A DNA stretch of 64,000 nucleotides from Jiella endophytica. GTDB lineage: Bacteria > Pseudomonadota > Alphaproteobacteria > Rhizobiales > Rhizobiaceae. Location: contig NZ_SOZD01000001.1 of NCBI RefSeq assembly GCF_004519335.1, forward strand, positions 558,001 to 622,000. Direction: 5' to 3'. This document shows positions 9,666 to 27,823 of this stretch, in pieces; the first letter of the stretch is position 1, and each line of letters starts with the position of its first letter. The notes beneath the pieces were generated by a model, which was not told the origin of the DNA, did not search any database, and saw nothing but the letters and a program-made list of their open reading frames with translations. The position numbers and the translations under genes are program-made.

Positions 9666-9858
9666 GCCCCTATCGCCGGTGTGGATAAGCCGGAAGCTGC
9701 TACGGACACGGTTGGCACGCTCTTAACCTTCTTGCTAAAAGTTTGCCCTTCGGCGCTGCGGCGAAGTTGCAATTGAGTCGGTTCTGGGCAAGTGTTCCCT
9801 CAAGGAATTGCAGGGCCCGGCGAATTGTCGCACGCCCTCCAGTTACCCCATGGAATGC

Positions 9859-10497: not shown

Positions 10498-10598
10498 CGG
10501 CGCTCCTCTTTCGATCGGGTTTCTGGCCCTGCTGTTCGGGACCCGGCCTTCCCGGCTACGGCACGCCGTCGGTGGGCGTTGGAGCAGCCGCCCCTGGA

Positions 10599-10620
10599 TT
10601 CTCGGGACGGGGCCCGAGAA
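10599..10620. repeat. Palindrome TTCTCGGG-N6-CCCGAGAA, copy 1
   Basis: Perfect 8-bp inverted repeat with a 6-base loop (acgggg), followed by TGACG. A near-identical copy with the same flank is at 13003-13024 inside uvrB. It belongs to the family of short palindromic repeats scattered through this region. Confidence 0.8.
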
Positions 10621-10708
10621 TGACGAAGCGGCGAGGGTTGCGCTCTTTCCTGCCGGTGTCGGGCACACGGTTTCGCGTTCCCGCGCCGCGTTACGGCCGG
10701 GGGTGTTC

Positions 10709-10858
10709 TCTGTCCCGCCCTTAAGCTTTGGCCTTCGGCCTTGCTGGCGGGTCCGATTCTCTGTCCCACCCTTAAGCTTCGGCCTTCGGCCTCGCTGGCG
10801 GGTCCCTGTCTGTCCCACCCTTAAGCTCCTCGCAGAGCTCGTCGCTGGTGGGCCCCTG
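10709..10858. repeat. Three tandem copies of a ~50-bp repeat
   Basis: Units begin TCTGTCCC(A/G)CCCTTAAGCT at 10709, 10760 and 10809, giving periods of 51 and 49 bp. Units 1 and 2 share a GGCCTTCGGCC palindrome and end in GCTGGCGGGTCC; unit 3 has diverged in its second half. No convincing gene spans it. Confidence 0.7.
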
Positions 10859-11348
10859 TTGCCGCCCATCGTGCCGATGGCACTCGGGCGGCGGTGCACC
10901 GGAGGCAAGCCCTCCGTGGTAGTCACACGTTTCCGGCTCGCCTCCGGCGCACCGCGCGGCTCTTTTCTGCCTCCATGGACCGTCGCCCGCCTGATCGACG
11001 GGGTCCGGTGGCGGCTGGCTCTTCACCCGCCAGTGCCTTTTCAGCACGGCGACCTCAAGCGGACCGATCCGCGCCCGCGCCGTATTACGCGAGGGACCAG
11101 CGGCACCAGGAGGCCGTCCGGGACGCCCCGCCTCCGGAAGGCAGGACGGCGCGGAGACCGCATCGCCGGCCCGCGAACGCTCCCGGTGAGCGCCCGTGCC
11201 CGGTTCCCGTCGACTGGTGTCGGGTGGACCGGCGATGGGGGGGAGTATGGGGGTGTGATGAGGGGCGGGGATAAGGTTTTTGAGGAGGGTGAGGGAAATC
11301 AGCGGGTTAGGAGGAAACCGGGACCGAGATATCTGTGGCGGCCGAACG
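10859..11348. other. Region without recognisable gene
   Basis: High-GC sequence between the tandem repeats and the nested inverted-repeat element. Several open frames exist on both strands, but none has a credible start context, conserved motif or natural composition. A poly-G-rich stretch occurs at about 11236-11290. Confidence 0.5.
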
Positions 11349-11349
11349 A

Positions 11350-11684
11350 GGCGCCCTCTCTCCCCCTTGCGGGAGAGAAAGCGATTTCATCGTCTTGGCG
11401 AAGCCAAGCGATAGAAATCGCAAGAGAGGGGTTTCACCGGTACAGATCCGATCGCGGAGGAGGCCGCTGCTGCTTCGGCGGCAGCTCCGTCGACGGTTGC
11501 GGGGGTTTTGGCGGGGAAACCCCTCTCTTGCCATTCTCAAGGTTTGGACCTTGCTTCGCTCGGCCCAACTCCTTGGAATGGCCCTCCGCTTCGCTTGGGG
11601 CGTTCGTCACTCGAAAAGACATGCTTTTCGTCCGCTTTGCGGACCGTTCCTCACTCTCTCCCACAAGGGGGAGAGAGGGGCGCC
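11350..11684. mobile_element. Nested inverted-repeat element (~335 bp), MITE- or BIME-like
   Basis: Outer arms at 11350-11378 and 11655-11684 are inverted copies of a GGCGCC-CTCTCTCCCCCTTG-type sequence, each also palindromic. Inside lies a perfect 16-bp inverted repeat, GCAAGAGAGGGGTTTC, at 11420-11435 and 11516-11531. No transposase is encoded. The whole could be a non-autonomous element or several REP-like units. No target duplication was identified by eye. Confidence 0.55.
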
Positions 11685-11691
11685 CAGTTTT

Positions 11692-11848
11692 GCGGCCTCA
11701 CCGCCCTGGCCGCCCGGTCTTCGTCGGCCGGCGTTTGCGCTTCTGGTCGCCGGGGTCTTCGTAGGAGCTGCGGCCGGTGCGTTCGCGTCGTGGTTCGCCC
11801 TTTGACGAGAGCTCAGGAAGCTCACCATGAGGACGAGCGGGGGAGTCG
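11692..11848 (-). pseudogene. Duplicated 3' end of uvrB (fragment)
   Basis: Bases 11692-11797 match 12505-12610, the real uvrB 3' end, with 9 mismatches in 106 bp by hand alignment. After a short insertion (about 11798-11819) the match resumes to 11848. The reading frame is kept and ends in the same QKRKRRPxKTGRPGR and stop (complement 11698-11700). It lacks all of the UvrB core. It forms one border of the segment holding the toxin-antitoxin pair. Confidence 0.85.
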
Positions 11849-11990
11849 TCTTTCCCCTGTGACGCTGAGCCCTGCGCGCCCCCCTCTGTCCTGCCGGACA
11901 TCTCCCCCACGGGGTGGGGAGATCCGCGGCTTTGGGGGTGGCGTTCTCATTGGGTTCGTGGGTGGTCCACAGTCGTGCGCTCGTCCCGTC

Positions 11991-12251
11991 TCAACTGCGT
12001 CCCAAAAGGTGGTCGTAGGCCGCGTGGCTGCCGATCCAGAACCAGACGCAGTCCTCGCCGCGTCTGACGGCGAGCGCTCGGTATCGTATGCCGATGCGGG
12101 CCGACCAGAACCGTCCGACTGGCTTGAAACGCAGCGACGGATGGTCGGGATCGGCCTTGAGAAGGGCGAAGTTGCGATCGGCCTGGGCGCGGACCGGGGC
12201 GGGCAGGGCATCGTAGGCCTTCCAAAACGACGGCGCCGCATGGTGGATCAC
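11991..12251 (-). CDS. RelE/ParE-family toxin
   Basis: An 86-aa protein with the RelE/ParE fold pattern: an N-terminal helix region (SFWKAYDALPAPVRAQAD), then the strand-rich LRFKPVG, RFWSARIGIRYRALAV and VWFWIGSHAAYD. The C-terminal HxxYD-type motif is typical of the HigB/RelE-like group. It probably cleaves mRNA at the ribosome, though a gyrase-targeting ParE role cannot be excluded. The start overlaps the antitoxin stop by 4 bp. Both genes lie between the two uvrB 3' ends. Confidence 0.82.
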   Translation of the reverse strand: MIHHAAPSFWKAYDALPAPVRAQADRNFALLKADPDHPSLRFKPVGRFWSARIGIRYRALAVRRGEDCVWFWIGSHAAYDHLLGRS

Positions 12252-12448
12252 AGACGCCGCGTCCGACCGGTGTCGAAGTCCGCGAGAGCGGCGTCGGCCA
12301 GCGCGTCGAGGGCGCCGGCCGTCGCGTCCGCTTCGATGGCGGCGTCAAAGCGGTCAGAATCATAGGCGTCGAACCAGGCACGCAGGCGAACGAGGTCGTC
12401 GCCGGAGAGGGCGGCGATCTCGGCTTCGAGCTTTTCCAGTCGCGTCAT
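12248..12448 (-). CDS. Antitoxin partner of the RelE/ParE toxin
   Basis: A 66-aa acidic, helical protein (MTRLEKLEAEIAALSGDDL) resembling the short antitoxins that precede RelE/ParE toxins. The N-terminal helices suit dimerisation and possibly DNA binding, and the C-terminus would wrap the toxin. It is the first gene of the pair, overlapping the toxin by 4 bp. The assignment rests mainly on size and position. Confidence 0.7.
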   Translation of the reverse strand: MTRLEKLEAEIAALSGDDLVRLRAWFDAYDSDRFDAAIEADATAGALDALADAALADFDTGRTRRL

Positions 12449-12510
12449 CGCTTCATCTCCGCAATTCCGGCCCTAAAGCTAGCTGCAAAATCTGGGTCCC
12501 GGAAGCCGCC

Positions 12511-15500
12511 TCACCGCCCCGGCCGCCCGGTCTTGCTGGGCCGGCGTTTGCGCTTCTGGTCGCCGGGGTCCTCGTAGGAGCCGCGGCCGATGCGTTCGCG
12601 GCGTGGTTCGACAAGCTCACCATGAGGGCGGGCGGGGGAGTCGGGCGCGGCCCCTCGTCCTTCGAGGCCCATTCCGGGCACCTCAGGATGAGGGGACTGA
12701 GAGGTGGGGCGGCCGGCAGGCTTTCCTTCAGGGTGAGGGGATTGAGTAGTCGTGTGCTCGGCAGGTTTCCCCTCATCCTGAGGTGCGAGCGGAGCGAGCC
12801 TCGAAGGGCGAGGGGAAACCGGGGCGCCGGCATTCGACGGCGTCGGCTTTTTCGGCGGCGTCTTGCCGGTGGGCTTTTCGGTGCGGCCGACGGTCATCTC
12901 ATCGAGGGTGTTCTTGCGGAAGTAGCTCCCCCCACCCCGACGCTCCGCGTCGACCCTCCCCACGTCGGGGGAGGGTGAGGCGCCGCGCCCGGCGTCCCTG
13001 GCTTCTCGGGACAGGGCCCGAGAATGACGATCGTCGGGCGCCCCGGAATGACGGGTGGGGGCGGCGCGGCCCGCCGGCACCGCCGTGTCGGTGCCGGGGC
13101 CCATGTCGTCGAGGCTCGGCTTACGGAACAGCGAGGCGGGGGCGGAAACCGTGCCGGAGCCGGGGGCCTTGAGCACCTCGCCGCGGGGGCCGAAGCGCTC
13201 GTCGCCTTGCGGGGCGCGGTCGCGCTTGGCCTTGCGGCCGTGCTTGGTGCGGCCGGTGGAGGGGCCCATGACGGACTCTTCCATGGCGACGGCGTCGGCG
13301 AGGGGGTCGCCGATATCCCGCTGGTGGGGAGGTCGCGCCGAAGGCGCGGGTGGGGGGGAGACCTTTCCGGAGCCTGTGCGGGACGAGCTACCGTCGCGAC
13401 CCCCACCCCTCGTGTGGCTTGGTTGGCGCGAGGAACCCCCACCCTGGCGCGAGCCGCCTGTCTCGCCCCGTCCTGCGGACTCCCTCAAGGGGGAGGTTGG
13501 GGCGCCAGCGTCCGCGCCGCCATCCAGCGAGACGTCGCCGCCGAATTCGAGCTCCTTGGCGTTGAGTTTCTTGATCTCGTCGCGCAGGCGCGCGGCGCGT
13601 TCGAAGTCGAGGTCGGCGGCGGATTCGCGCATCTGCTTTTCGAGATGCTCGATATGGGCGCGCAGATTGTTACCGACCAGCTCGCCTTCCTTGGCCGTCG
13701 GGCCGACATCGACGCGGACGTGGTCCTTTTCGTAGTAGCTGTCGAGGATGTCGGCGATCTTCGCCTTGACGCTCGCCGGCGTGATGCCGTGCTCGGCGTT
13801 CCAGGCCTCCTGCTTCTCGCGGCGGCGGGTGGTCTCGGCCATCGCCCGCTCCATCGAGCCGGTGACCTGGTCGGCATAGAGGATCACTTTGCCGTCGACG
13901 TTTCGCGCGGCGCGGCCGATGGTCTGGACGAGGGAGGTCTCCGAGCGCAGGAAACCTTCCTTGTCGGCGTCGAGGATCGCCACGAGGCCGCATTCGGGGA
14001 TGTCGAGGCCTTCCCGGAGGAGGTTGATGCCGACCAGCACGTCGAAGGCGCCGAGGCGGAGATCGCGGATGATCTCGATGCGCTCCAGCGTGTCGATGTC
14101 CGAATGCATGTAGCGGACCCGAATGCCCTGCTCGTGCAGATATTCGGTGAGGTCCTCGGCCATGCGCTTGGTCAGCACGGTGCAGAGGACGCGGTAGCCC
14201 TTGTCGACGGTCTCGCGGATTTCGCCGAGGAGGTCGTCGACCTGGGAGCGGGCGGGGCGGACCTCGACGGGCGGGTCGGTGAGGCCGGTGGGGCGGATCA
14301 CCTGTTCGGCGAAGACGCCGCCGGATTCCTCGAGCTCCCAGGAGGAGGGGGTGGCGGAGACGGCCACCGTCTGCGGGCGCATGGCGTCCCACTCCTCGAA
14401 GCGGAGGGGGCGGTTGTCCATGCAGGAGGGCAGGCGGAAACCGTATTCGGCGAGCGTCGCCTTGCGGCGGAAGTCGCCGCGATACATGGCGCCGATCTGC
14501 GGCACGGTGACGTGGCTCTCGTCGATGAAGACCAGCGCGTTGTCGGGGAGATATTCGAAGAGGGTCGGCGGCGGGTGGCCGGGGGCGCGGCCGGTGAGAT
14601 AGCGCGAATAGTTCTCGATGCCGGCGCAGGATCCGGTCGCCTCGATCATCTCGATGTCGAAACGCGTGCGCTGTTCCAGCCGCTGGGCCTCGAGCAGGCG
14701 GCCGGCCTTTTCCAGCTCGGCGAGGCGGTGCTTCAGTTCTTCCCTGATCGATTTCACCGCCTGGTTCAGTGTCGGGCGGGGGGTGACGTAGTGGGAATTG
14801 GCGTAGATCTTCACCGACTTCAGATCGTCGGTCTTCTGGCCGGTGAGGGGGTCGAACTCCTGGATCGCCTCGATCTCGTCGCCGAAGAGGGAGATACGCC
14901 AGGCGCGGTCCTCGAGGTGGGCGGGGAAGATCTCGATGGTGTCGCCGCGGACCCGGAACGAGCCGCGCTGAAAATCCATGTCGCGGCGCTTGTACTGCTG
15001 GGCGACGAGGTCGGCGAGGAGCTGGCGCTGGTCGAGCCGGTCGCCGATCGCCATCTGGAAGGTCATCGCCGTATAGGTCTCGACCGAGCCGATACCGTAG
15101 ATGCAGGAGACCGAGGCGACGATGATGACGTCGTCGCGCTCGAGCAGCGCCCGGGTTGCGGCATGGCGCATCCGGTCGATCTGCTCGTTGATCGAGGATT
15201 CCTTCTCGATATAGGTGTCCGAGCGCGGGACATAGGCCTCGGGCTGGTAGTAGTCGTAATAGGAGACGAAATACTCCACCGCGTTGTCCGGGAAGAAGGA
15301 CTTGAACTCGCCATAGAGCTGGGCGGCCAGCGTCTTGTTGGGGGCGAGGATCAGCGCCGGGCGCTGGGTGCGCTCGATGACATTGGCGACGGTGAAGGTC
15401 TTGCCCGAACCGGTGACGCCGAGCAGCACCTGGGTCTTGTCGTGGTCGGCGATGCCGGAGACGAGGTCGGCGATGGCGGTCGGCTGGTCGCCCATCGGCG

Positions 15501-16191
15501 TATAGTCCGAGGCGATGCGGAATTTGACGCCGCCCTCGGATTTTTCCGGCCGGGCCGGACGGTGCGGCAGCCAGACCTCGCCGTTCTTGATCAGCGGGTT
15601 GCCCTCGGAGATCAGCTTGGTCAGCGCCTCGACCGTGGCGGTGACGCCGCCCTCGGGCAGGCTCTTGGCGTCCTCCAGGCTGACATCCATGCCGGCGACC
15701 GGGTTGAGCCCGGCGGCGGCGCGCTGCTTCGGGTCGGTGGTGCCGCCCATGGAAGTGCCGCGCGCCGATTTCATCGGCTTTTTGTTCGCGTTCACGCTGT
15801 CGGCGCTACGCGCCTTCGCTCCACTTGGGCGGGCTGACCGCCCGACGGCCGGTCGGCCTCGCCTCGCTTCGCTCGGGTCGGCGTCTGCGTCGTCAGCCGA
15901 CGTCGGCGTTTTCCCGGCAGCCGTCTCAGGCGCGTCGCCGGCATCGGCCGATCGCTCGGCTTTGGTCTCGGTGCTGCGGGCGATCTCATCGGCCCAGCCG
16001 GAAATCGGGCCGGACAGGCCTTCGCCCGTATCGAAACCGGCCTGCGGCGCTTCCGCAAATCCGCCTGCGGCGCGCTCGGACGCATCGGAAAAATCCGTCA
16101 GCGGCCCGCGGCGTGCCGGGGCGGAAGGATCGAAGACGGCGTCGTCGCTCGATGACGGATGGCGGGGCGCTTTGCGGGGTCGGGAAGCCAT
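12511..16191 (-). CDS. uvrB: Excinuclease ABC subunit UvrB, greatly extended
   Basis: Damage-verification helicase of nucleotide excision repair. The core (about residues 218-887) matches the 673-aa E. coli protein: [14 protein letters not shown] at its start, Walker A GVTGSGKT (about 258-265), a DESHVT helicase motif, GRAARN motif VI, and a UVR domain ([12 protein letters not shown]). A disordered N-terminal extension of about 218 aa precedes it. The roughly 340-aa tail is built largely of palindromic repeat sequence read in frame, ending in [14 protein letters not shown] and KTGRPGR, which resembles rhizobial UvrB tails. The total is 1226 aa from the ATG at 16191; longer starts run through an unrelated divergent region. 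Confidence 0.93.
12652..12693. repeat. Intergenic-type palindromic repeat inside uvrB, arm 1
   Basis: CCTCGTCCTTCGAGG... CACCTCAGGATGAGG. It is an inverted copy of 12774-12816 and of a type usually found between genes in Rhizobiales. Here it is translated as part of the UvrB tail. Confidence 0.7.
12774..12816. repeat. Intergenic-type palindromic repeat inside uvrB, arm 2
   Basis: CCTCATCCTGAGGTGC, GAGCGGAGCGAGCC, then TCGAAGGGCGAGG. It is the inverted counterpart of 12652-12693, and is in frame within uvrB. Confidence 0.7.
13003..13024. repeat. Palindrome TTCTCGGG-N6-CCCGAGAA, copy 2, inside uvrB
   Basis: Same 8-bp arms and the same TGACG flank as 10599-10620, loop acaggg. It is read in frame in the UvrB tail. 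Confidence 0.75.
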
Positions 16192-16521
16192 GGCGGAACA
16201 TATAGTGACCATGGCGTGGGCTGGGAAGGTGGCGGCGGGACCGTCCACCGCTTTGCAACCGGGGCAGGCCGTGATCTGGCATGCCACGGCCTGATTGTAA
16301 GCCGGCCTGCCGATTGCATGCATTTTGTGCGTTGCGACAAAAGCCGTCGCGTCTGGCGGGCCACCGACACGCCGGCGGACCCGGCCAGCGAGGGCGCCGG
16401 TATCCGCCACCTCAGGCCAAACCCGCTGCGAGACAGGCGATGCGGACCCCGCAGCCGGCGCGCGGGCCGGCTTTGGCACGGTGCTTGCCTCGTTGTGTTC
16501 GCAACAGCATGGGGCACGTGC
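16192..16521. other. Divergent intergenic region, uvrB / ABC transporter
   Basis: This holds the promoters for uvrB (leftward) and the ABC importer (rightward). No THI box or other riboswitch core was recognised, and no LexA-like site was convincing. An open frame runs through it from 16159 but has no start context. Confidence 0.5.
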
Positions 16522-17295
16522 ATGAGCGACAAAGCCAGGCAACTCCAGATCACCGGGCTGGCCAAGACCTTCGCCACCAAGACCGGCAGCGTTCCGGTGG
16601 TGCGCGATCTGACCTTCGACATCCACGAGCAGGACTTCGTCTCGATCATCGGCCCGTCGGGCTGCGGCAAGACGACGATCTTCAACATGATCGCCGGGCT
16701 GCTCGACGCCGATGCCGGGACGATGCGCTATCGCGGCGAGCCGGTGGACGGGCTGCGCGGCCGCATCGGCTACATGATGCAGAAGGACCTTCTGTTTCCC
16801 TGGCGCACGGTGCTGCAGAACTGCCTGCTCGGCCTGGAAATGCGCAATGTCGACCGCAGGGAAGCCCGCGAAAAGGCGCTGGACTATCTCGAGACCTTCG
16901 GCCTGAAGGGCTTCGAGAACGCCTATCCGAGCACTCTGTCCGGCGGCCAGCGCCAGCGCGTCGCGCTGATCCGCACGCTGGTGATGGATCCGGACATCCT
17001 GCTTCTCGACGAGCCGTTCTCGGCCCTCGACTACCAGACGCGGCTGCATCTCGAAGGGGTGCTGGTCGACGCGGTGGAGACTGCCGGCAAGACGGTGATC
17101 CTGATCACCCACGACGTCGACGAGGCGGTCGCCTTGTCGAAGCGGGTGGTGGTGCTCTCCGGCCGGCCCTCCAAGGTGAAGGCGATCCACGACATCGATC
17201 TCGCCAGCCATTCGCCGATCGAGTCGCGCTCCGACCCGAACTTCTCCCGCTACTTTCACCTGCTCTGCAACGAGCTCGACATCCAGACCCAGTGA
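16522..17295 (+). CDS. ABC importer ATPase, nitrate/sulfonate/NMT1 type
   Basis: A 257-aa ATPase of the SsuB/TauB/ThiZ group. Walker A is GPSGCGKTT (residues 44-52), the signature is LSGGQRQR, Walker B is [12 protein letters not shown], and the switch is ITHDVDEAV. The ATG at 16522 starts the conserved region; upstream in-frame sequence is unlike the family. It is followed 21 bp later by the permease and then the binding protein, giving a complete importer. The substrate is unknown; sulfonate, pyrimidine precursors and aromatic acids are all used by relatives. Confidence 0.9.
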
Positions 17296-17316
17296 GGCAA
17301 ACCCAGTGAGGTCCGC

Positions 17317-18183
17317 ATGAGCGTCACCGCATCGAACGAGCGCGGCGTGGCCAAGGCCGGCCCGAAGCCGCGCGCCTATTTCCAGCTGTCCGGCGACGGG
17401 CTCGGCGGCGGGCTGACCCGCGGCCTTTTGCAGCTCGTGGTCGTCGTCGCCTTCTTCGTCGCCTGGGAGCTCGGCGTGCGCTTCGGCGGCATTTCCGGCT
17501 TCCTGTTCGGCCAGCCCTCGGGGATCTTCGCCAATTTCGGCCGGATGATCATGAACGGCCAACTCTTCGTCGACACCGGCTACACCGCCCTCGAGGCGAT
17601 CACCGGCTTCGTCCTCGGCACCATCGCCGGCACCGCCATCGGCCTGTCGCTGTGGTATTCCGTCGGCGTCGCCAAGCTGGTCGAGCCCTTCGTCATCGCC
17701 ATGAACTCGGTGCCGAAGATCGCGCTGGCGCCGCTGATCATCCTGTGGTTCGGCACCGGCTATTCCTCGAAGATCGCCCTTGCCATCGCGATGACGGCGA
17801 TCGTCGCGCTGATCACCGCCTATCAGGCGGCCCGCGACGCCGACAAGGATCTGCAGCGGCTGCTGCGCTCGATGGGCGCCGACAAGCACCGGATCTTCTT
17901 CAAGGCGGTGGTGCCGTCGTCGCTGCCGGCGGTGATCGCCACCTTCCGGATCAATATCGGCTTCGCGCTGGTCGGCGCGGTGGTCGGCGAGTTCATCTCC
18001 TCCCAGCACGGCCTCGGCCACCTCGTCTTCACCGCCTCCAACCTCTACGACCTCAACACGGTCTGGGTCGGGCTGTTCTCGCTGATGATCCTCGGCTTCG
18101 CCCTCTATCACATCGTCAATTTCATCGAGCGCCGGGTGCTGCCCTGGAAGCAGGATCTCAGCACCCGCCAGGTCGCCGCCTGA
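17317..18183 (+). CDS. ABC importer permease, nitrate/sulfonate/NMT1 type
   Basis: A 288-aa inner-membrane permease with about six helices. The first is near residues 40-58 ([18 protein letters not shown]), and the BPD_transp_1 EAA region lies near residues 185-205 ([18 protein letters not shown]). It fits the SsuC/TauC/ThiX group. It lies between the ATPase and binding-protein genes on the same strand with short gaps, so one operon is likely. Confidence 0.9.
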
Positions 18184-18233
18184 GCGTGCCCGTCTCCCGA
18201 CCAACCCCTCCCAAACCAGCAGGAAACAGGACC

Positions 18234-19193
18234 ATGAAGAAACTCCTCGCCATTCTCGCAACGACGGCGCTCGTTTCGCTGACCGCTCCCGCGCTTGCCC
18301 AGGAGAAGACCGACGTCACCATCTCCCAGGCCTTCCAGTCGCTGCTCTATCTGCCGCTCTATGTCGCCATCGACGACGGCATGTTCGACGATGCCGGGCT
18401 GAACGTCACCAAGGAGAGCGCCGGCTCCGGCCCGACGGCGCTGAACTCGGTGATCTCCGGCAGCGCCGACTTCTCGCTGCACGGCCCGGAATGGACCGCC
18501 ATCGCCTTCGAGAAGGGCGCGCCGGTGAAGACCATCGCCAATGTCGTCAACGGCGCGGCCGTGTGGATCCTCGCCGACGAGGATTTCGACTACAAGGGCC
18601 CGGAAAGCTTCTCGGGCCAGACCGTCGTCGCCGGCATGATGCCGACCACCTCGACCTCGCTGTTCCTGAAGCTCCTGTCGGAGAAGGGCGTCGACAAGGA
18701 CAGCGTCAAGACCATCCAGGTGCAGATCGGCGCCGAGCCGGCCCCCTTCATCGGCGGCCAGGCGCCGCTGGCGGTGATGTACGAGCCGGGCGTCGACCAG
18801 GCGGTGGCCGAGGGCAAGAAGGTGATCCTGTCTTTCCCGAAGGAATACGGCCCCTACGCCTTCTCGACCATCATGGCGCGCAGCGACGTCGACGAGGACA
18901 AGGCGACGAAGTTCGTCGCCGGGCTGCAGAAGGCGCTGGAGACCATCCAGAAGGACCCGGCCGAGGCGGTGAAGGTCGCCCAGAAGGAGTTTCCGAACCT
19001 CGATCCGAAGGTGGTCGAGGCGGCGGTAAAGCGGATGATCGACGACGGCGTCTATGCGCCCAGCGTCGACATCACCAAGGAGGCGATGGAGACCAGCCTC
19101 GGCGTGCAGATTGCGCTGGGCAATCTCGGCTCGCAGCCGGATTTTTCGAAGTTCGTCGACAAGACTTTTATCGACAAGGCGATGGGCGAGTAG
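18234..19193 (+). CDS. ABC importer substrate-binding protein, NMT1/SsuA-like
   Basis: A 319-aa periplasmic binding protein with a Sec signal peptide cut near ALAQ-E (residues 23-24). The mature start [20 protein letters not shown] and the following [13 protein letters not shown] are typical of the NMT1/THI5-like fold. The SSLF-type sugar or phosphate loops of known families are not evident. The start is the ATG preceded by AGGAAA. It completes the three-gene importer. No metabolic gene sits beside it to reveal the ligand. Confidence 0.88.
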
Positions 19194-19333
19194 GGCCTAA
19201 AAGCCATCGCGGAATGAGGGCAGGGCCGTGCGCGAGGAGCGCGCGCCTTGCCTGTTTGGAGCGTGGCTTGCGGCAGTAGCTGCTGTTCCAGTTATAGCGC
19301 ACGTGGCGCACGTGCTGTCCAACCAGCGCGTAG

Positions 19334-19933
19334 TCATACTTGATATCGAATTGCCGATCCGCCGCTCAAAACATCGTCTGGTGACTGGTTATGAAGAAGA
19401 AGGTTTTTGATCGGATCGACGACCTCTTTTCGAAGTGCGTCATGACCGTCGATTGCCATCAGGGGTACAGTGAAGAACCAAGTGCGATTCAGCCAAGGTT
19501 TGTCGGCATTCTCCCATTCGAGCAGCCGGCCGTCAGCATGACGCGTGCAACCGCGGCTCTCCTCGGAAATCGGGCGGCCGTCCATGCCGATGGCGACCTC
19601 ATCAACTTCCCAGCCCGTGTCAAACTTCGGTGCGTAGGCGCAAGTGAGAAAGGCGCGCCGGGCATGAGCCCATGATGACGGAATCTCAGGTCGTGCCAAG
19701 TCGAAAACGAACAGAAGTTGGCTTGGCAGACGCTGCCGCCCAACCAGTTTGTGAATTTTGAAGTGATATCCTGTCCGCGAATATGCCCAGTCATCTCCCA
19801 AGTTTTCTTCAGTCGAAGCGCCAAGGGTGAGGTCCGGCGAAAACCCACTTGGAAGCGCAGCCACCAATCGATCGATCTCCGCCCACACAATTTCGGCAGT
19901 CGCAAAAGCATTGAAGATCGGGTCGCTCGTCAT
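19334..19933 (-). CDS. Hypothetical protein, partner of the PD-(D/E)XK protein
   Basis: A 199-aa ORF whose ATG overlaps the upstream stop by 4 bp (ATGA), implying obligate coupling. It has no signal peptide or membrane helix. Visible features are a W-rich middle (DDWAYSRTGYHFKIHKLVG) and an HxxGRLLEWEN segment. I do not recognise the family. Base composition is less GC-rich than its neighbours, and codon use looks atypical, so transfer is likely. It may regulate, inhibit or target the nuclease-like upstream protein. Confidence 0.65.
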   Translation of the reverse strand: MTSDPIFNAFATAEIVWAEIDRLVAALPSGFSPDLTLGASTEENLGDDWAYSRTGYHFKIHKLVGRQRLPSQLLFVFDLARPEIPSSWAHARRAFLTCAYAPKFDTGWEVDEVAIGMDGRPISEESRGCTRHADGRLLEWENADKPWLNRTWFFTVPLMAIDGHDALRKEVVDPIKNLLLHNQSPDDVLSGGSAIRYQV

Positions 19934-20619
19934 GTCGTCTCCCTCCAGAAGACTGGCTCGTTCGGGGTTGAGACCTCATTTGTCAGCGTAAAGCCCTGAA
20001 AATCGATCTGCTCGGCGCGTGTCAGAAATTCGCCCACCAGCGCACCCCAGCGTCCCTCGGCTGCCTGAGGATCGCGCGTTCGAAGCGCATTTGCCGCACC
20101 ATGAAGCTGCACCCATGTCCGCTCGACGACGTTCGCCAAGGTGGCACGCAAGCGGTATTTGGTAATCGCAACCATCACCATGGCGGTAGCGTCGGGATAG
20201 TGCGCCGCTACTGCGCGACGCTGTCGATCGATTTCAGTCTGAATGTGATCGCTGCTGACATTCCAGTCCCATTTCACCTCACCGACCAGCACAACCTGGG
20301 GGCCCGCCTCGAAGTCGAAGCGTAACAAAAAGTCTGGCTCGCATCGCGTCTGGCGGTCAGTTTCGGCCCACGATCTGTCCCTCAAACCTTCAGGCCATAG
20401 CTGGATGTGGTGGGCACAGGGAGTCCGGCCCTGAAAGGCATCGGCGAGAGTGGGACCCGAGATTTCGAGCGCGACCGCTGCGGCCGCTTTCGCGCTCATG
20501 AAGGCGAGCGGGGTGAAGACCATGGAGGTCACCCCGTCCTCGTCCTTGCCAATCTTGTGATCGCTTCTCACGTGCATAAGCACGCGACGGACGTTCTTCT
20601 GATTGAATGCGTGGAGCAT
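19930..20619 (-). CDS. PD-(D/E)XK superfamily nuclease-like protein
   Basis: A 229-aa protein with a likely restriction-type active site: E94-P95-D96 in CEPDFLLRF, followed after a hydrophobic strand (VVLVG) by E114-V-K116 in GEVKWDWN. This spacing and strand order fit the PD-(D/E)XK core. A helix with IDRQRRA follows. It has no methylase or helicase domain. It heads a two-gene unit with the overlapping 19334-19933 gene. Lower GC and isolation suggest an acquired module. A function in DNA cleavage is inferred from the motif only. Confidence 0.65.
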   Translation of the reverse strand: MLHAFNQKNVRRVLMHVRSDHKIGKDEDGVTSMVFTPLAFMSAKAAAAVALEISGPTLADAFQGRTPCAHHIQLWPEGLRDRSWAETDRQTRCEPDFLLRFDFEAGPQVVLVGEVKWDWNVSSDHIQTEIDRQRRAVAAHYPDATAMVMVAITKYRLRATLANVVERTWVQLHGAANALRTRDPQAAEGRWGALVGEFLTRAEQIDFQGFTLTNEVSTPNEPVFWRETT

Positions 20620-20731
20620 TCAGTCAACCTATACTAACGCAGTCGAAATACAACTCCTGCGCGGCGCCGGCTGTATTGCACCCTGAAAACCGGCGCGGTC
20701 GCGGCCGACCGCTCGAAGAGTGCCGCCCCCC

Positions 20732-20826
20732 TCAATCCTCCGGCAGGGCGTAGGCGATGTAGTAGTCGCCGACCGGCGTCTCGATGAAGTGATGGCCGCC
20801 GGCCTGGATGACCAGATATTCGCGGC
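20732..20826 (-). pseudogene. Duplicated 3' end of the PQQ dehydrogenase gene (fragment)
   Basis: Bases 20731-20826 match 23791-23886 at a constant offset of 3060 with three mismatches in 96 bp. In frame they encode REYLVIQAGGHHF, then I (M in the intact gene), then ETPVGDYYIAYALPED and a stop. Two of the three differences are silent and one is conservative, as expected of formerly coding DNA. An open frame extends upstream to 20998 by chance. It borders the radical SAM cassette. Confidence 0.88.
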
Positions 20827-21004
20827 TTTTTTGATATCGGGATCGAAAAGCTGCCATTTCGCGCTCAGTCAGTTTCAAACCATTGATCAGGCGGTGCGAG
20901 ACCGTCGGCAAATGGGGCCGGGAGGAGTGTGTTCGCACCGTGCATGATCGGAAGGCGGAATATCTTCGCTGGCGATACCGAGCCGCCGCCCCATGCAACG
21001 ATGA

Positions 21005-22144
21005 TCATGTCGACGCCGGCGTGAGGGGTCGTTCGGGCAGAAGGAACAGATCGGCCCAGGAGGCCCAGACATCCAGCCACATCTCGAACGATTCGTCGCT
21101 TCGGGTGAACGATCTCAATCGATTCAGGATCGTCGCATAGCTCTGCGCATAAGCGCGGCATTCCCGACAATCGATGTTCGGGGAGCAGCACTTGCCGTCG
21201 TTTTCGCTGAGGTCGACATTGTAGTGACGGTGCTTGCGCGTAAGACGATTGCCGCAGTCGAGAGGCAGTCCTTGATCGTCAAGCGTGTAAAGCCCTTCAG
21301 GTCGCGTCACCCACCGATCGTAGGCCATGTTGTAGCGAACAGTATCCGGATGACGATCCGACGCGGCAGTGATGGCTCTGCTGGCGCGTTCGAAATCTTC
21401 CCGACCCATGATGAGCCCGACCCCTTGCGCGCCGAGCCGGAAGTAGTCGCTTTCCTCTGTGCTCTGGATGGCAAGTCGCGTCAGATAGTCGTCGGTCGGA
21501 GAGAAATAGCTGAAGGTCAGCGGCACGCCATGGGCCGCGCAGGCATCTGCTACGGGTGCGATCGAGTCGATATTCGTCCGGTTGATCGTGTAGACGGCCA
21601 GAGCCCGCGCATCGCCGCTGTAGTTGCGCAGCGCCTTTTCACCATTGGATGCCCCGCGCAACGCGGCTGCGTCCGCGGTGTCGCCCCAGAGCGAGATATG
21701 GATCCGATAGCGGATGTCGGCGGGCAGGCGCTTGATACCGTTCGTAAACACCACCCCGCGCGGAATAGAGCGCTGTGCGGCGCGCAAGACGTCGGGCACG
21801 AGCGAAGGCTCAGCGCCGGCGAAGTAGCCGAAATTGACGCCGCGGCCCGCCTCGTTCGCGAAGAAATCGTCCCATCGCTCCATCGCCTTCACCTCGCGGC
21901 GCGCCTTGTAGGCAAGGCCGGAGAAATAGAGGCACCCCTCGCAGGTCAGATTACAGACGTCGGAGATGTCGTAGTTGCTCGATACGATCGTCCCGATGCG
22001 GCTGCGCATGGCGCGGTAGCGGGCCTGAAGCCTCGGGTGCTGATCCTCGCGAGCAGGACGCAGCCGAACCGGCGATGTGCCTTCCGCCATCGCGCCGGGC
22101 TGCGCTGCTGCACGAAAGCAAATGTCAGGCGCCGGATCCGACAC
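21005..22144 (-). CDS. Radical SAM protein with C-terminal cysteine cluster
   Basis: A radical SAM enzyme of 379 aa if started at GTG 22144, which overlaps the upstream TAG stop and has AAGG 7 bases before it; ATG at 22090 is the alternative. The cluster motif is C64-x3-C68-x2-C71 (CNLTCEGC), followed by the GG-like NFGYFAGAEPSL region and HISLWG. A second cysteine group near the C-terminus (GKCCSPNIDCRECRAY) could hold an extra cluster, as in SPASM or Twitch enzymes. The substrate is unknown. It is translationally coupled to the TPR/hydrolase gene. Confidence 0.8.
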   Translation of the reverse strand: MSDPAPDICFRAAAQPGAMAEGTSPVRLRPAREDQHPRLQARYRAMRSRIGTIVSSNYDISDVCNLTCEGCLYFSGLAYKARREVKAMERWDDFFANEAGRGVNFGYFAGAEPSLVPDVLRAAQRSIPRGVVFTNGIKRLPADIRYRIHISLWGDTADAAALRGASNGEKALRNYSGDARALAVYTINRTNIDSIAPVADACAAHGVPLTFSYFSPTDDYLTRLAIQSTEESDYFRLGAQGVGLIMGREDFERASRAITAASDRHPDTVRYNMAYDRWVTRPEGLYTLDDQGLPLDCGNRLTRKHRHYNVDLSENDGKCCSPNIDCRECRAYAQSYATILNRLRSFTRSDESFEMWLDVWASWADLFLLPERPLTPAST

Positions 22145-23709
22145 TAGGCACCTTGTATCGCCGAGCCGACGAATTGCCTGTCGGCCGGCTCCGGCTCGGG
22201 AAATTCGCTCGTGCGCCGTGCGACATGCCGCTCTAAAGTCGCGGCCAAAGTGCCTGCGGCGGCCATGGTTTTCATCGTACCGTGGATATCGATCGTGTCG
22301 AGGGGATGCAGGGTGACACCCGGCACGCCGCGCAGATGCTCGGCGTGCCTGCGATCCTGCGGCATTCCCGCACCGTAGAAGATGTCGATGGGATTGACCG
22401 CTTCTCGAGCCAGGAGGTGGGGGCGCAGATCGAGCATCTCGGCATCGAGCGCTTGCAGCCGCTTCGCCACCAGCTGTCCGCGTCGATCCTCGGCGAGAAA
22501 TTCGGCCGTCAGATTGCTCGGGGGAGAGAAGCACAACGTTGCGGCGGCTCCCAGATCCACGCCGTAACGCATCGCGGCGTAGCCCCCGGCCGATGTGCCG
22601 ATGGTCGTCACCGGACCTGCGCCGAGGCGAGCGATCTGTTCTCGCAGCGCCTCCAGCGTCTCATCATAACCTGCCGCCAGCTCGCTGATGCCGCGCATGA
22701 ACAGCCAGCGCCTGATGTCTGTCAGGTAGATCGTGGAGACCTCGAGCCCCGCCATGTAACGGTCGAAGACCGGAAGCGATAGCGACGCCTTCGCTGCAAG
22801 GCCAGTGAAGACGAGGACCGTGCCGCGGGAGTGTCGAGCACTGGCGATCTTGACCGCGCCGTTCCGATCGAGATCGGCCAATGGCCGCGTCGGCGGCAAA
22901 TCGGGGGGAACGAAATCCGCCTGTGCGTCGAGATGCGCCGGAAGAGGCTCGCCGAAGTGATGGAGAATCTGTGCAGCCTGTCGGCGCCGAGCGGGGTCTG
23001 CATCGAGGGGAACCGCCCGTGCGGCGTCGACTGCAAGGCGCCTCAGTTCGTCATCGGCCGGCAGCTGTCGCACATACATCAGGACGAGAAGATCGCGGCA
23101 CCCTTCGTGAGCAATTCGGAGCAGATGCCCTCGAGCATTGTCGATCCTGCCGGAGTTGATGAGATGCCGAAGCGCGAGAGCCTGATCGGTGGATTGCGCA
23201 TTCGGTACGCGCAGGATGCGATCGTTCTCCTCGGCGGCTCGATCGACGAGACCAAGCTCTATTGCTGCGCCACCCGCGATGCGCCGGGCGGTGATATTGT
23301 CGCAATCGGCAATGATCGCCTGATCGGCGGCCTTCAACGCTGCCGTGGGGTCGCCCATCCGGTTACATAACGCTGCCAGATTCACCAGTCTGTCCGCCGA
23401 CGGCTGCGGCGACTTGGCGATCGCCTTTTCGAGCCGATGCCGTCTGGCAACAAGATCTTGATGCTTCCCGTCCGGGGATGCGGAATGCTGGTGCTGTTCG
23501 TGTTGAGATAGCTCGGTTCTTACGCTCAAAACACCAGAATCCGTGCTTGCTGCAGCGACGCCAACGCGTCGCGTCAGTGTCGCATCAGTTGACGCTATCG
23601 CCCATCTTGAAAGCGCGTTGGGCTTTGCGAAAAAGCCGGCATTCACAGTCTCGCCAAGCGCGCTGAAGAGTCCCCGACCGACAATGAAACTGCGCAACGC
23701 GGATTGCAA
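22144..23709 (-). CDS. TPR protein with C-terminal alpha/beta hydrolase domain
   Basis: A 521-aa protein. Residues about 85-240 form helical TPR-like repeats (LVNLAALCNRMGDPTAALKA and similar). The C-terminal half looks like an alpha/beta hydrolase: strand LVFTGLAAK, nucleophile elbow GTSAGG near residue 372, an aspartate in NPIDIFYGAG, and a histidine in DIHGTMK. The first about 75 residues are weakly conserved-looking, so the true start may be internal. It lies about 80 bp from the intact PQQ gene's stop and overlaps the radical SAM gene, forming a two-gene cassette. Confidence 0.72.
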   Translation of the reverse strand: MQSALRSFIVGRGLFSALGETVNAGFFAKPNALSRWAIASTDATLTRRVGVAAASTDSGVLSVRTELSQHEQHQHSASPDGKHQDLVARRHRLEKAIAKSPQPSADRLVNLAALCNRMGDPTAALKAADQAIIADCDNITARRIAGGAAIELGLVDRAAEENDRILRVPNAQSTDQALALRHLINSGRIDNARGHLLRIAHEGCRDLLVLMYVRQLPADDELRRLAVDAARAVPLDADPARRRQAAQILHHFGEPLPAHLDAQADFVPPDLPPTRPLADLDRNGAVKIASARHSRGTVLVFTGLAAKASLSLPVFDRYMAGLEVSTIYLTDIRRWLFMRGISELAAGYDETLEALREQIARLGAGPVTTIGTSAGGYAAMRYGVDLGAAATLCFSPPSNLTAEFLAEDRRGQLVAKRLQALDAEMLDLRPHLLAREAVNPIDIFYGAGMPQDRRHAEHLRGVPGVTLHPLDTIDIHGTMKTMAAAGTLAATLERHVARRTSEFPEPEPADRQFVGSAIQGA

Positions 23710-23791
23710 GATCGCCGCGAGAAATCGTCATCGGCAGCGGCCGGCAGGAGGCTTGCCGGCCGTTCGACGAGCACGTGCCTCCCGCCGCCCC

Positions 23792-26077
23792 TCAGTCCTC
23801 CGGCAGGGCGTAGGCGATGTAGTAGTCGCCGACCGGCGTCTCCATGAAGTGATGGCCGCCGGCCTGGATGACCAGATATTCTCGGCCGTCCTCCTCGTAG
23901 ACGATCGGATTGGCCTGGCCGCCGGCGGGCAGCACGTCGGACCACAGGGTCTCGCCGGTCTTCTCGTCGATCGCCCGGATCAGATTGTCCGTCGCGGCGG
24001 CGATGAAGATGATGCCGCCCTTGGTGACCACCGAGCCGCCGTTGTTCGGCGTGCCGATGGAGAAGGGCAGGAAGGACGGGATGCCCCAGGGGCCGTTGCG
24101 CCTTGCGGTGCCGAGCGGGCGGTCCCACAGCGTCTTGCCGGTCGCAAGATCGATCGCCGTGATGCCGCCGAGCGGCGGCTGCTTGCAGGGAATGCCGGTG
24201 ACCGGCGCGCGCCAGCCGGCATTGACGTCGATCGCATAGGGCGCGCCGGCCTGGGGATCGCCGGCGCCTTCGGCCTTGGTGCCGCCCTCGTCGCCCGGCT
24301 GCTTCTCGTTGATCGGCTTCAGATTGCGCTCGTCGGCCTCTTTCCGGGGGATCAGCCGGTTATGGTTCGGCACGTCGTTGTAATTGGCGACGATGACGCC
24401 GTTGTCGGTGTCGACGGCGACGCTGCCCCAGTCCGAGCCGCCGTTGTAGCCGGGATATTCGATCCAGTGGCGGTCGGTGGTGGGCGGCGTGTAGATGCCG
24501 TCATAGGACGCCTTGCGGAAGGCGATACGGCAGAACAGCTGGTCGAGCGGGGTGATCCCCCACATGTCGGCCTCGGTGAGGTCGCGCTTGGCCAGCGTGT
24601 GATAGCCGGATTTCGGCTGGGTCTTCGAATAGACGTCCGGCTCGACGCCGCCCTTCGGCGCCTCGACCTCGTCGACCGGCACCAGCGGCTCGCCGGTGGC
24701 GCGGTCGAGGATGTAGATGTCGCCCTGCTTGGACGGCAAGAGGATCGCCGGGGTGGTGCCGTCGCCGTCCTTGTTAGGGAAGTCGATCAGCGTCGCCTGG
24801 CTGCCGAGATCGTAGTCCCAGACGTCGCGGTGGACGGTCTGGAAGTGCCAGGCCGGCTTGCCGGTGGCAACGTCGATGGCGACCAGCGAGCTCGCCCATT
24901 GATGTTCGGCGTCGGAACGGTTGCCGGCGTAATAGTCGACCGAGGAATTGCCGAGCGGCAGATAGACGAGGCCGAGCTCCTCGTCGGCGGTCGCCTGGGT
25001 CCACATGTTGGGGGTGCCGCGGGTGTAGGTCTCGCCCTCGGGCGGGGCGCCGGTGAGCTCGGGATTGCCGAGATCCCAGGCCCAGGCGAGCTTGCCGGTG
25101 ACCGCGTCATAGCCGCGGATCACGCCGGAGGGGGCGTCCTCGGCCTGGCCGTCCTTGACCTGCGCGCCGGTCACCGCGATGCCGCGCACGATCGCCGGCG
25201 GTGCCGTCACCGCATACCAGCCGGGCACCTTGTCGCCGATGCCCTGCCAGAGATCGACCGAACCGTTGTCGCCGAAATCGGCGCAGGGCTCGCCGGTCCT
25301 GGCGTCGACGGCGACAAGCCGGGCGTCGAGGGTCCCCTCGATGATCCGCGCGGCGCAGGCCTGATCGGCCGGGGCGTCGGGGACCTCGTAATAGGCAACG
25401 CCCCGGCAGGTGGCGCCATAGGGGATGGCATCGTCGGAGACCTTGGGGTCGTAGCGCCAGTTCTCCTTGCCGGTGCGCGCATCGACGGAGGCGAGGACAT
25501 TCATCGCCGAGCAGAGATAGAGGCTGCCGCCGACCTTCAGCGGCGTGCCTTCCGGCGAATATTTCCCCTCGGTCTTCTCGTCCGGCATGTCGCCGGTGCG
25601 GTAGGTCCAGACCTTTTCGAGCTCGGAGACATTGTCCGGGGTGATCTGGTCGAGGGGGGAGAAGCGGGTGGCGTTCGGCCCGCCGCCCCAGAACGGCCAG
25701 TTGGAGCCGACCTGCCGCTGTGTTGCCGGAGAACGGGCGGCGAGGGCGGTTCCCGAGGCTTCGGCGGCGTCGCCATTCGTCTCGCCGGAGGCCTCGCCGC
25801 CGGGCTGACCGGCCTGTGCAGCCGGCTCGCCGGGCTGTGCAACGGGATCGCCGGTGGTCGCGCCGTCCGGCTGGCCGGCAGCCGGGGCGGCGTCGCCGGT
25901 CGGAGCCGCAGCGTCCGGCTGCTCAGGCGTTGCCGCATCCGGCGCCGTCGCAGCGGGCGCGGCCTGCTCGGGTGCTGCGGGCGCATCCTGGGCAAGGGCG
26001 CCATAGGGCGAGGCGGCAAGGGTGAGGATCGTGGCGAGCGCCGTCGCCCGGCCGGTCCGCGAAAAGCGTCTGGTCAT
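23792..26077 (-). CDS. PQQ-dependent dehydrogenase, secreted catalytic subunit (Gcd/SldA-like)
   Basis: A periplasmic quinoprotein of 761 aa with a signal peptide (MTRRFSRTGRATALATILTL, cut after GALAQ). A Pro/Ala-rich linker of about 100 residues precedes the eight-bladed propeller, which starts WPFWGGGPNATRFSPLDQI. Several tryptophan-docking-type repeats (LVAIDVATGKPAWHF and similar) are visible. The closest families are membrane glucose/quinate dehydrogenases and SldA polyol dehydrogenase. Unlike E. coli Gcd, it has no N-terminal helices; those are in the separate gene just upstream. The 3' end exists twice in the window. Confidence 0.85.
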   Translation of the reverse strand: MTRRFSRTGRATALATILTLAASPYGALAQDAPAAPEQAAPAATAPDAATPEQPDAAAPTGDAAPAAGQPDGATTGDPVAQPGEPAAQAGQPGGEASGETNGDAAEASGTALAARSPATQRQVGSNWPFWGGGPNATRFSPLDQITPDNVSELEKVWTYRTGDMPDEKTEGKYSPEGTPLKVGGSLYLCSAMNVLASVDARTGKENWRYDPKVSDDAIPYGATCRGVAYYEVPDAPADQACAARIIEGTLDARLVAVDARTGEPCADFGDNGSVDLWQGIGDKVPGWYAVTAPPAIVRGIAVTGAQVKDGQAEDAPSGVIRGYDAVTGKLAWAWDLGNPELTGAPPEGETYTRGTPNMWTQATADEELGLVYLPLGNSSVDYYAGNRSDAEHQWASSLVAIDVATGKPAWHFQTVHRDVWDYDLGSQATLIDFPNKDGDGTTPAILLPSKQGDIYILDRATGEPLVPVDEVEAPKGGVEPDVYSKTQPKSGYHTLAKRDLTEADMWGITPLDQLFCRIAFRKASYDGIYTPPTTDRHWIEYPGYNGGSDWGSVAVDTDNGVIVANYNDVPNHNRLIPRKEADERNLKPINEKQPGDEGGTKAEGAGDPQAGAPYAIDVNAGWRAPVTGIPCKQPPLGGITAIDLATGKTLWDRPLGTARRNGPWGIPSFLPFSIGTPNNGGSVVTKGGIIFIAAATDNLIRAIDEKTGETLWSDVLPAGGQANPIVYEEDGREYLVIQAGGHHFMETPVGDYYIAYALPED

Positions 26078-26103
26078 CGTCAACTCCAAATCAGGTCGGG
26101 CAA

Positions 26104-26580
26104 TCAGCGGGCGGTGGGAATGATGGTGCCGCCCGGGCGCTGTCGGCGGGCGCCCGCGGACTGCGGCGCGCTCTCGGCCACCGAGGGGGCGGGCGTGCCG
26201 GAGCGCGGCGCAGCGCGTCTGGCCGCAGCGTTGCGCAGCACCGGGATCGTCAGGAGGACGAGCAGGAGGATCACCGTCGGTGCGACCAGCCGGGGCACCT
26301 GCGCCCACCAGTCGAAGCCCTTTTCCCAGAATGCCCAGACAAGCGTGCCGAGCCAGGTGACGAGATAGACCCAGACCGCCGCCATCGAGGCCTGGACGAG
26401 GAACCAGGCGGTCAGAATGAGGCCGATGCCGGCGAAGACGTAGTACCAGGAGCCGCCGAGCCAGGCGAGATAGGCGCCGCCGCCCAAGATCGGCAGGCCG
26501 AAGAGCACGATGACCACGGCGAGAACCACCACCGCCCAGTAACCCGCACCCCGTCTCGTCGTGCCGTCCGTCACGCTCAT
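26104..26580 (-). CDS. Membrane-anchor subunit of PQQ dehydrogenase (Gcd N-terminus/SldB-like)
   Basis: A 158-aa protein with four to five hydrophobic helices (about residues 14-34, 38-55, 60-80, 92-112), then a Pro/Ala/Arg-rich tail. It resembles the five-helix N-terminal domain of membrane glucose dehydrogenase and SldB of Gluconobacter, which anchors SldA and passes electrons to ubiquinone. The catalytic gene starts 26 bp later in another frame and has its own signal peptide, so this is a true two-gene arrangement and not a frameshift. Confidence 0.78.
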   Translation of the reverse strand: MSVTDGTTRRGAGYWAVVVLAVVIVLFGLPILGGGAYLAWLGGSWYYVFAGIGLILTAWFLVQASMAAVWVYLVTWLGTLVWAFWEKGFDWWAQVPRLVAPTVILLLVLLTIPVLRNAAARRAAPRSGTPAPSVAESAPQSAGARRQRPGGTIIPTAR

Positions 26581-27139: not shown

Positions 27140-27823
27140 ATGAAATACCTCCAGACAACAGCTCTTGCCACGATCCTTCTCGCCGGCAGCGTCGGGCTTG
27201 GCTATGCACAGACCTCCTCGTCGACGACCGGAACCGGCGGCACGATGATCCAGGACGGTACCTCGTCCAGCACGATCGGGACCGGCGGTTCGGCGGCGAC
27301 CAGCGGCAGCGGTGACGGCTCGGGCTCGGGCTCGGGCTCGACGCTCGGCACCGGTGGCACCTCCGCAGGCGACGGCATGTCGTCCTCGTCGGTCGGGACC
27401 GGTGGCAGCGCGGCCGGCAGCGGTGACGGCTCGGGTTCGGGCTCGGCCTCGACGCTCGGCACCGGTGGCACCTCCGCAGGTGACGGCATGTCGTCCTCGT
27501 CGGTCGGGACCGGCGGTTCGGCGGCGACCAGCGGCAGCGGTGACGGCTCGGGTTCGGGCTCGGCCTCGACGCTCGGCACCGGTGGCACGTCCGCGGGGGA
27601 CGGTACGTCGTCCTCGTCGGTCGGCACGGGCGGCAGCGCCGCCGCGAGCGGTGACGGCTCAGCGGCGGGCTCGGCCTCGACCATGGGCACCGGTGGCACT
27701 TCGGCCGGCGACGGCATGACGTCGTCTTCGGTCGGCACCGGCGGCAGCGCTGCGAGCGCGGCTCAGGACGACGATTCCAACAAGAGCTGCCCTCCGGGAC
27801 AGTCCAAGAAGGACAAGTGCTGA
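27140..27823 (+). CDS. Secreted Gly/Ser/Thr-rich repeat protein
   Basis: A 227-aa protein with a Sec signal peptide (MKYLQTTALATILLAGSVGL, cut near GYAQ). The mature part is low complexity: units of about 35 residues with STLGTGGTSAGDGMSSSSVG followed by TGGSAA and a GDGSGSGS stretch. It ends with a charged tail bearing two cysteines (SCPPGQSKKDKC). No domain was recognised. Two further secreted proteins with GTGG or TTGTT motifs follow on the same strand. It may be an extracellular matrix, adhesin-like or stress-related protein. Confidence 0.75.
   Translation: MKYLQTTALATILLAGSVGLGYAQTSSSTTGTGGTMIQDGTSSSTIGTGGSAATSGSGDGSGSGSGSTLGTGGTSAGDGMSSSSVGTGGSAAGSGDGSGSGSASTLGTGGTSAGDGMSSSSVGTGGSAATSGSGDGSGSGSASTLGTGGTSAGDGTSSSSVGTGGSAAASGDGSAAGSASTMGTGGTSAGDGMTSSSVGTGGSAASAAQDDDSNKSCPPGQSKKDKC

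Follow-up and report, generated by a model that had tools for sequence, protein, structure and literature searches.

The end of the uvrB gene of Jiella endophytica occurs twice in a 64,000 nt stretch of its genome (contig NZ_SOZD01000001.1, positions 558,001 to 622,000; hereafter the window), with about 0.66 kb of cargo between the copies, and second uvrB ends recur in other genomes of the family, which is Rhizobiaceae in the GTDB classification. The best reading is that many related bacteria repeatedly gain and lose small, often anti-viral cassettes at the uvrB end, and that some of these swaps leave the old gene end behind. With moderate confidence, the uvrB 3' end is considered to be a gene-turnover hotspot of the family, mostly without a recognisable integrase, at which a homologous left joint is combined with an illegitimate right joint.

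A search for repeated gene ends over window positions 9000–26000 revealed that the uvrB end at 12505–12610 recurs at 11692–11797 (106 nt, 92% identity). The duplicated segment is the end of the gene, including the stop codon and six bases past it. uvrB itself is an intact open reading frame (ORF) on the minus strand, with its stop at 12511–12513 and a C-terminal tail that is long and variable, and its end shares 82–97% identity with its counterparts in the other Jiella genomes and in G035 (G, C and L numbers are our handles for genomes, contigs and loci). Aligned with the end of the intact gene, the orphan copy covers 133 bp of it (81.5% in 151 columns), and in comparison with G008 its homology extends as far as about 11938, the start of a dispersed repeat designated R (GATCTCCCC...GGGGGAGATGTCCGGCAGGACAGAGGGGGG, from 11924 in the window). 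The features of the locus are as follows:

12511..16191, minus strand: uvrB, 1226 codons from the likely ATG, a start picked by its agreement with the G007 ORF
12505..12610, minus strand: proximal (functional) uvrB 3' end, repeat copy, from the repeat search
12248..12448, minus strand: first cargo gene, an antitoxin-like ORF of 66 aa, called antitoxin by position only
11991..12251, minus strand: putative ParE-like toxin ORF of 86 aa (Pfam PF24732, E-value 2.9e-5, at the cut-off)
11798..11938, minus strand: older uvrB tail before the distal end, starting at or just before repeat R
11692..11797, minus strand: distal orphan uvrB end, read as the scar of the resident end, from the repeat search and alignment
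11350..11691, minus strand: ancestral uvrB flank, about 10 bp followed by element A, which has inverted ends

Element A is, in our reading, similar to a miniature inverted-repeat transposable element. As a candidate toxin-antitoxin (TA) pair of the ParDE/RelBE type, the cargo consists of a ParE_like match at the Pfam cut-off beside a small ORF without a family match; the 66 aa ORF has no match in Pfam, PADLOC or NCBIfam, and the 86 aa ORF has no sequence match in the PDB. The UvrB C-terminal tail (window 12511–13500; L053–L062 in our locus set) carries in-frame repeats, some of them palindromic, that vary between species and resemble the palindromic elements of Rickettsia. Past the uvrB flank, positions 10706–10805 hold two tandem 49 nt copies (94%). 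A tRNA gene was considered as the insertion target and rejected, the sole tRNA of the window lying at 30602–30690.

Among ten genomes of the genus, a second uvrB end is found near the first in three (J. endophytica itself, G005 and G008). The uvrB 3' regions of 60 further family genomes were added, and 77 were examined in all. The conserved UvrB C-terminal motif, ...KTGRPGR or a close form, is present in 76; G131, which lacks a terminal motif, is not included, and the census stands at 76 of 77. Second ends that score well above shuffled controls are found in seven genomes (J. endophytica, G005, G008, G084, G118, G135 and G151), a count that excludes short remnants in G069 (about 13 bp, by eye) and on contig C22 of J. 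endophytica. The count was then restricted to the other family genomes with 1.5 kb of downstream sequence and to scores of at least 48. Of these 70 genomes, 6 have a second uvrB end inside that 1.5 kb, whereas of 216 3' ends of other genes at the same loci none is repeated in this way (Fisher p = 1.8e-4). The 5' ends of genes, used as a control, gave 2 of 196, both barely over the cut. Since the doubled end recurs at uvrB in other species and genera, a repeatable process at this site is indicated. Marginal scores in G154 (35, null 28) and G067 (31, null 25) were left out of the count, and at the islands low in guanine and cytosine (low-GC) that follow uvrB in G001, G004, G006 and G009 no clear second end was found (best scores 23–35, null maxima 22–35), the 35 of G009 being on the opposite strand. 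A possible degenerate uvrB end before the TA pair of G013 was dropped (best score 28, null maxima 26–28).

The remnants reach back from the stop by 30 (G151), 53 (G084), 93 (G118), 104 (G008), 105 (G005), 107 (G135) and 133 bp (the window), so that across the seven genomes the repeat starts lie between positions -30 and -133, counted from the stop, without a fixed core. This variation argues against one integrase core, because a single core should give one start. In G005, G008 and G135 the second end is diverged (80–88%) and is followed after 175–365 bp by a low-GC ORF; the DNA between the two uvrB ends is rich in repeats.

The orphan of the window and the sequence after it are colinear with the uvrB end and flank of G007, G008 and G005, and the orphan is preceded by a piece of uvrB tail of a type seen in G008, G004 and G005. 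Because of this colinearity the orphan, still joined to its flank, appears to be the former resident end, in front of which the TA pair and the proximal end would have arrived. Elsewhere in the J. endophytica genome (G000), an ectopic segment of about 2 kb (C22:128400–131500, L069) partly matches the uvrB end and flank, split by a short insert, and is bounded by repeats R and A. It carries an 88 aa ORF and an ORF that is presumably DUF559-like, and lies downstream of a gene that we take to be PqqE-like.

The DNA past the uvrB stop differs in most genomes, with the first 160 bp common to a few pairs only, and is often low in GC; uvrB is thus the constant flank of changing cargo, as in a core defence hotspot. 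An ORF of low GC (90 aa or more, GC below 0.53, start within 3.5 kb of the stop) follows uvrB in 34 of the 76 census genomes, some of these ORFs probably being spurious, and in 6 of the 8 Jiella genomes of the census, compared with a baseline of 6 of 678 gene stops in a sample of the J. endophytica genome. PADLOC was run on part of the low-GC ORFs of each of 27 of the 34 genomes (G152, G167, G128, G036, G158, G031 and G136 were excluded). At an E-value of 1e-5 or better it matched 18 of 36 cargo proteins, in 13 of the 27 genomes, and the remaining 14 genomes gave no match at that threshold. As controls, 20 of 21 chosen ORFs from the same loci, more than 3.5 kb from uvrB, were run; two matched (a cyclase domain and mad2), which supports a defence-rich uvrB cargo, although the controls have normal GC and the cargo low GC. 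The systems matched were retron II-A (G011 and G111), AriAB (G069), a dCTP deaminase (G025), PDC-S28 (G006 and G132), an OLD/Gabija-like protein (G107), DarT (G155), PDC-S33 (G026), beta and cll (G009), NsnA/GmrSD-like (G012), RmrA/capP-like (G134) and, weakly, a dGTPase (G074). Pfam, run on 20 cargo ORFs of relatives, found NACHT domains in the cargo of G004 and G093, and a sole Phage_integrase, in G117.

Members of the TA family of the window are also found downstream of uvrB in G160, G013 (with another ORF in between), G073 (with the toxin cut short) and, as the antitoxin alone, G120, so that uvrB-TA neighbourhoods exist elsewhere; whole or partial, the family stands after uvrB in four other genera. 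Relatives of the ParE-like toxin at an E-value of 1e-12 occur in 31 of 297 family genomes, J. endophytica included. A small ORF found after uvrB in three genera (L057:8259–8546 in G005, L112 in G084, L055 in G003 and L146 in G167) is presumably GIY-YIG-like. It adjoins element-B-like repeats in G003, G005 and G084, and in G005 it sits between the two uvrB ends.

The favoured explanation combines what was observed, namely the duplication, its recurrence at uvrB, the variable remnants, the defence-rich cargo and the colinearity of orphan and flank, with three elements that we infer: the homologous left joint, the illegitimate right joint and the order of events. Incoming DNA would carry a uvrB 3' end together with a small cargo. 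The left joint would form by homologous recombination inside the resident uvrB, and the gene would always receive an intact end from the incoming DNA, while the far joint would be illegitimate, or made via short dispersed repeats, and may land anywhere nearby. Wherever this joint cut into the resident uvrB end, a remnant of that end would persist, together with its flank, as an orphan scar, and repeated rounds would produce layers. In the window, the incoming end would have brought the TA pair, and the far joint would be located in the old tail, at repeat R or close to it, giving the scar at 11692–11938. A homologous joint in uvrB with a free joint on the other side would account for both the spread of remnant lengths and the always-intact gene.

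Several observations weigh against this explanation. In the cargo-free G002 the shared flank begins within 140 bp of the stop and part of it is missing, so the cargo-free state could be a deletion. The second ends all start within the last 133 bp of uvrB, and random right joints should leave longer copies, unless these were possibly lost through recombination. G151 has an att-like arrangement, a 30 bp repeat (29/30) around a 0.7 kb low-GC insert, and G117 has a phage-type tyrosine integrase (L132:3373–4470) 2 kb downstream of uvrB. The baseline for low-GC ORFs comes from one high-GC genome, and genera of lower GC may have raised the figure of 34 of 76. No donor carrying the window TA unit was found, and sliding uvrB identity across Jiella showed no clear breakpoint.

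The sequence-only reading had pointed to a second case of the same design within 12 kb of the first, at a gene for a pyrroloquinoline quinone (PQQ) dehydrogenase. Both duplications are real, and each pairs the 3' end of an intact gene on the minus strand with an orphan copy. The cargo sizes it gave (about 0.66 and 2.96 kb) were confirmed, and, as it had stated, no integrase was recognised by Pfam and NCBIfam scans in six cargo and neighbouring ORFs of the window. Its repeat length of about 100 bp is too short for the uvrB orphan, with its 133 bp alignment. At the PQQ locus the two ends are 97% identical over 99 nt without gaps (20728–20826 and 23788–23886) and 96% identical over 105 columns with gaps (20723–20826 and 23782–23886). 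The copy comprises the final 92 coding bases, the stop codon and about ten further bases; it differs from the original by three substitutions and slightly in length. The intact gene is a minus-strand ORF with its stop at 23792–23794. The features here are:

23792..26308, minus strand: membrane-bound PQQ dehydrogenase of the glucose/quinate/shikimate family (Pfam PF01011, E-value 5.7e-218; NCBIfam TIGR03074, E-value 3.6e-252)
23782..23886, minus strand: proximal PQQ-dehydrogenase 3' end, repeat copy, from the repeat search
22144..23709, minus strand: cargo ORF of 521 aa (Pfam TPR_16, E-value 0.0023, below the cut-off) with a GTSAG (GxSxG) motif
21008..22048, minus strand: cargo protein, radical S-adenosylmethionine (SAM)-like, with a CNLTCEGC motif (PDB SkfB, E-value 0.00095)
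20723..20826, minus strand: distal orphan PQQ-dehydrogenase end, in-frame within the ORF 20732–20998
19930..20619, minus strand: ORF after the distal end, weakly related to the PADLOC candidate defence family PDC-M15A (E-value 2.1e-6)
19334..19933, minus strand: companion ORF of 199 aa, without a family match in Pfam, PADLOC or NCBIfam

The 521 aa ORF is perhaps an alpha/beta hydrolase. The radical-SAM-like protein has weak NCBIfam and PADLOC matches below the cut-off, no Pfam match, and, across the 297 family genomes, no relative outside J. endophytica at an E-value of 1e-20; a pattern search of the genome contigs for a close relative found none, and the best plasmid match is 36%. The ORF at 19930–20619 has no Pfam or NCBIfam match; with its companion it forms a two-gene unit (19334–20619) after the distal end, one gene of which is weakly PDC-M15A-like. 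In a survey of the 297 family genomes, with three candidates scored per genome, the PQQ end was matched in 58, and side-by-side doubling was seen in J. endophytica alone; four others have two matches each, but on different contigs. The PQQ end also matches 79 plasmid records at 60–90% identity, and of the ten listed, six matches fall under an annotated PQQ/glucose dehydrogenase, three under no feature and one in an unannotated record. The stretch between the PQQ gene and uvrB is variable in relatives too.

The proposal that the two loci exemplify a general class across the genome was not borne out. In an 800 kb sample of the J. endophytica genome, taken in stretches, none of 676 gene-like ORFs has its 3' end repeated within 8 kb, whereas the 38 such ORFs of the 64 kb window include exactly the two known cases, and because of this difference their clustering is more than chance. 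A border core shared by the uvrB and PQQ loci was looked for, as the sequence-only reading had advised; the repeats, left joints and right joints are dissimilar, and the search gave nothing above shuffles. Overall, the idea of an insertion route is partly supported: the doubled end does recur at uvrB in other species and genera, but the design is not genome-wide and no core joins the two loci.

Integrative elements and cis-mobilizable elements (CIMEs) use a gene 3' end as attachment site, and the duplications could likewise reflect site-specific integration, with the uvrB (and PQQ) 3' end as attB, the copy on the element as attP, an integrase acting in trans and the orphan as attR. The exact restoration of the gene end would fit this, as would the near-perfect repeat of G151, the PQQ copies with their 96% identity over 105 columns and abrupt borders, and the integrase gene of G117. 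Nevertheless, it appears unlikely. Well-conserved copies, too, differ in where the repeat starts (30, 53 and about 100 bp), the alignments at the cargo of G001, G004, G006 and G009 stay below the score of 48, and the uvrB and PQQ loci have no common core. Moreover, the 6.8 kb around the G117 integrase contain no direct repeat of at least 20 nt, none of the six window ORFs was recognised as an integrase, and the uvrB end of the window has no match in phage records, nor that of G151 in phage or plasmid records. The same facts bear on the earlier suggestion of a cassette moved in trans, for which the att-like G151 speaks, and which is weakened by the variable remnants, by the four Jiella islands without a clear second end, and by the two uvrB ends unmatched in phage records, one of which was also tried in plasmid records. 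A bolder version, in which gene 3' ends serve as address labels and a trans-acting system circulates small cassettes tagged with a host-gene end, healing the gene at each landing, would make uvrB a family-wide site for defence cassettes and PQQ a second address; it is improbable.

It is also doubtful that the gene end was duplicated or moved within the genome by dispersed repeats (R, A, B and others), trapping cargo between the copies. The orphan of the window does start at or near repeat R, the second ends of G005, G008 and G084 follow element-B-like repeats, and that of G118 follows a short repeat also present in the uvrB tail of the window; G084 looks like a tandem copy of the uvrB end and flank, and the C22 segment with its bounding repeats R and A could be a product of such a process. 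Against this, G151 and the PQQ pair have no such repeat at the joint, and the cargo is species-variable and often low in GC. With 13 copies in the 800 kb, R is a dispersed repeat, but the other four motifs have 0 to 3 hits there, B having none; relatives, too, have R as a normal part of their uvrB tail. Quite possibly, and compatibly with the favoured explanation, the two loci have unrelated histories, uvrB being the product of a hotspot and PQQ a one-off acquisition of a radical-SAM-like pair. The borders of the two loci are unrelated, a doubled PQQ end is not seen in the other 57 of the 58 matching family genomes, and the radical-SAM-like protein stands equally alone among the family genomes. 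That two duplications lie 12 kb apart with none in the 800 kb sample is suggestive of the contrary, though the pair was picked for this, and the variability of the PQQ-uvrB interval in relatives points the same way. Under the favoured explanation, the PQQ insertion is proposed, from a single example, as a second product of the route seen at uvrB.

Core defence hotspots are already known, as are hotspots without recognisable mobile elements in which core genes recombine. For the hotspots cDHS1 and cDHS2 of Pseudomonas aeruginosa, termed enigmatic, transfer by homologous recombination via conserved flanks has been suggested, which would leave no mobile-element scars (PMC10250203). Transfer through conserved flanks is likewise envisaged here, but host gene-end remnants, another kind of scar, mark the joints, and the site (the uvrB end), the host family and the small cargo (about 0.3–3 kb) differ. 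Turnover of genes next to core genes has also been described, at hotspots of which many have no recognisable mobile element and where the flanking core genes recombine (PMC5635113); the abstract does not mention a gene-end scar. The combination of one homologous and one illegitimate joint of incoming DNA has a counterpart in homology-facilitated illegitimate recombination, measured in the laboratory in Escherichia coli conjugation at very low frequency (PMC3240628), whereas here it is inferred from genome scars. The present loci share with 3'-end integrative elements and CIMEs, and with the integrase-bearing defence islands of E. coli, where core defence hotspots are also reported (PMC10121019), the placing of cargo between direct repeats of a 3' end with the gene left intact; unlike these, they have no recognised integrase in the cargo, no fixed core and a variable repeat length. 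The term uvrB has zero counts in the main text of PMC10250203 and PMC10121019, and no description of a uvrB-end hotspot was found among the papers listed in literature searches, judged by titles and abstract openings. The uvrB-end site, its family-wide breadth and the host gene-end remnants seem to be new. They bear on how integrase-free defence hotspots are built, since the uvrB remnants could allow the order and joints of past exchanges to be traced, and the genes directly downstream of uvrB in this family offer a simple place to seek new defence systems.

Beyond the two loci, a further direct repeat (about 198 columns, 76%) is present at 27221–27753 and overlaps the start of an ORF.

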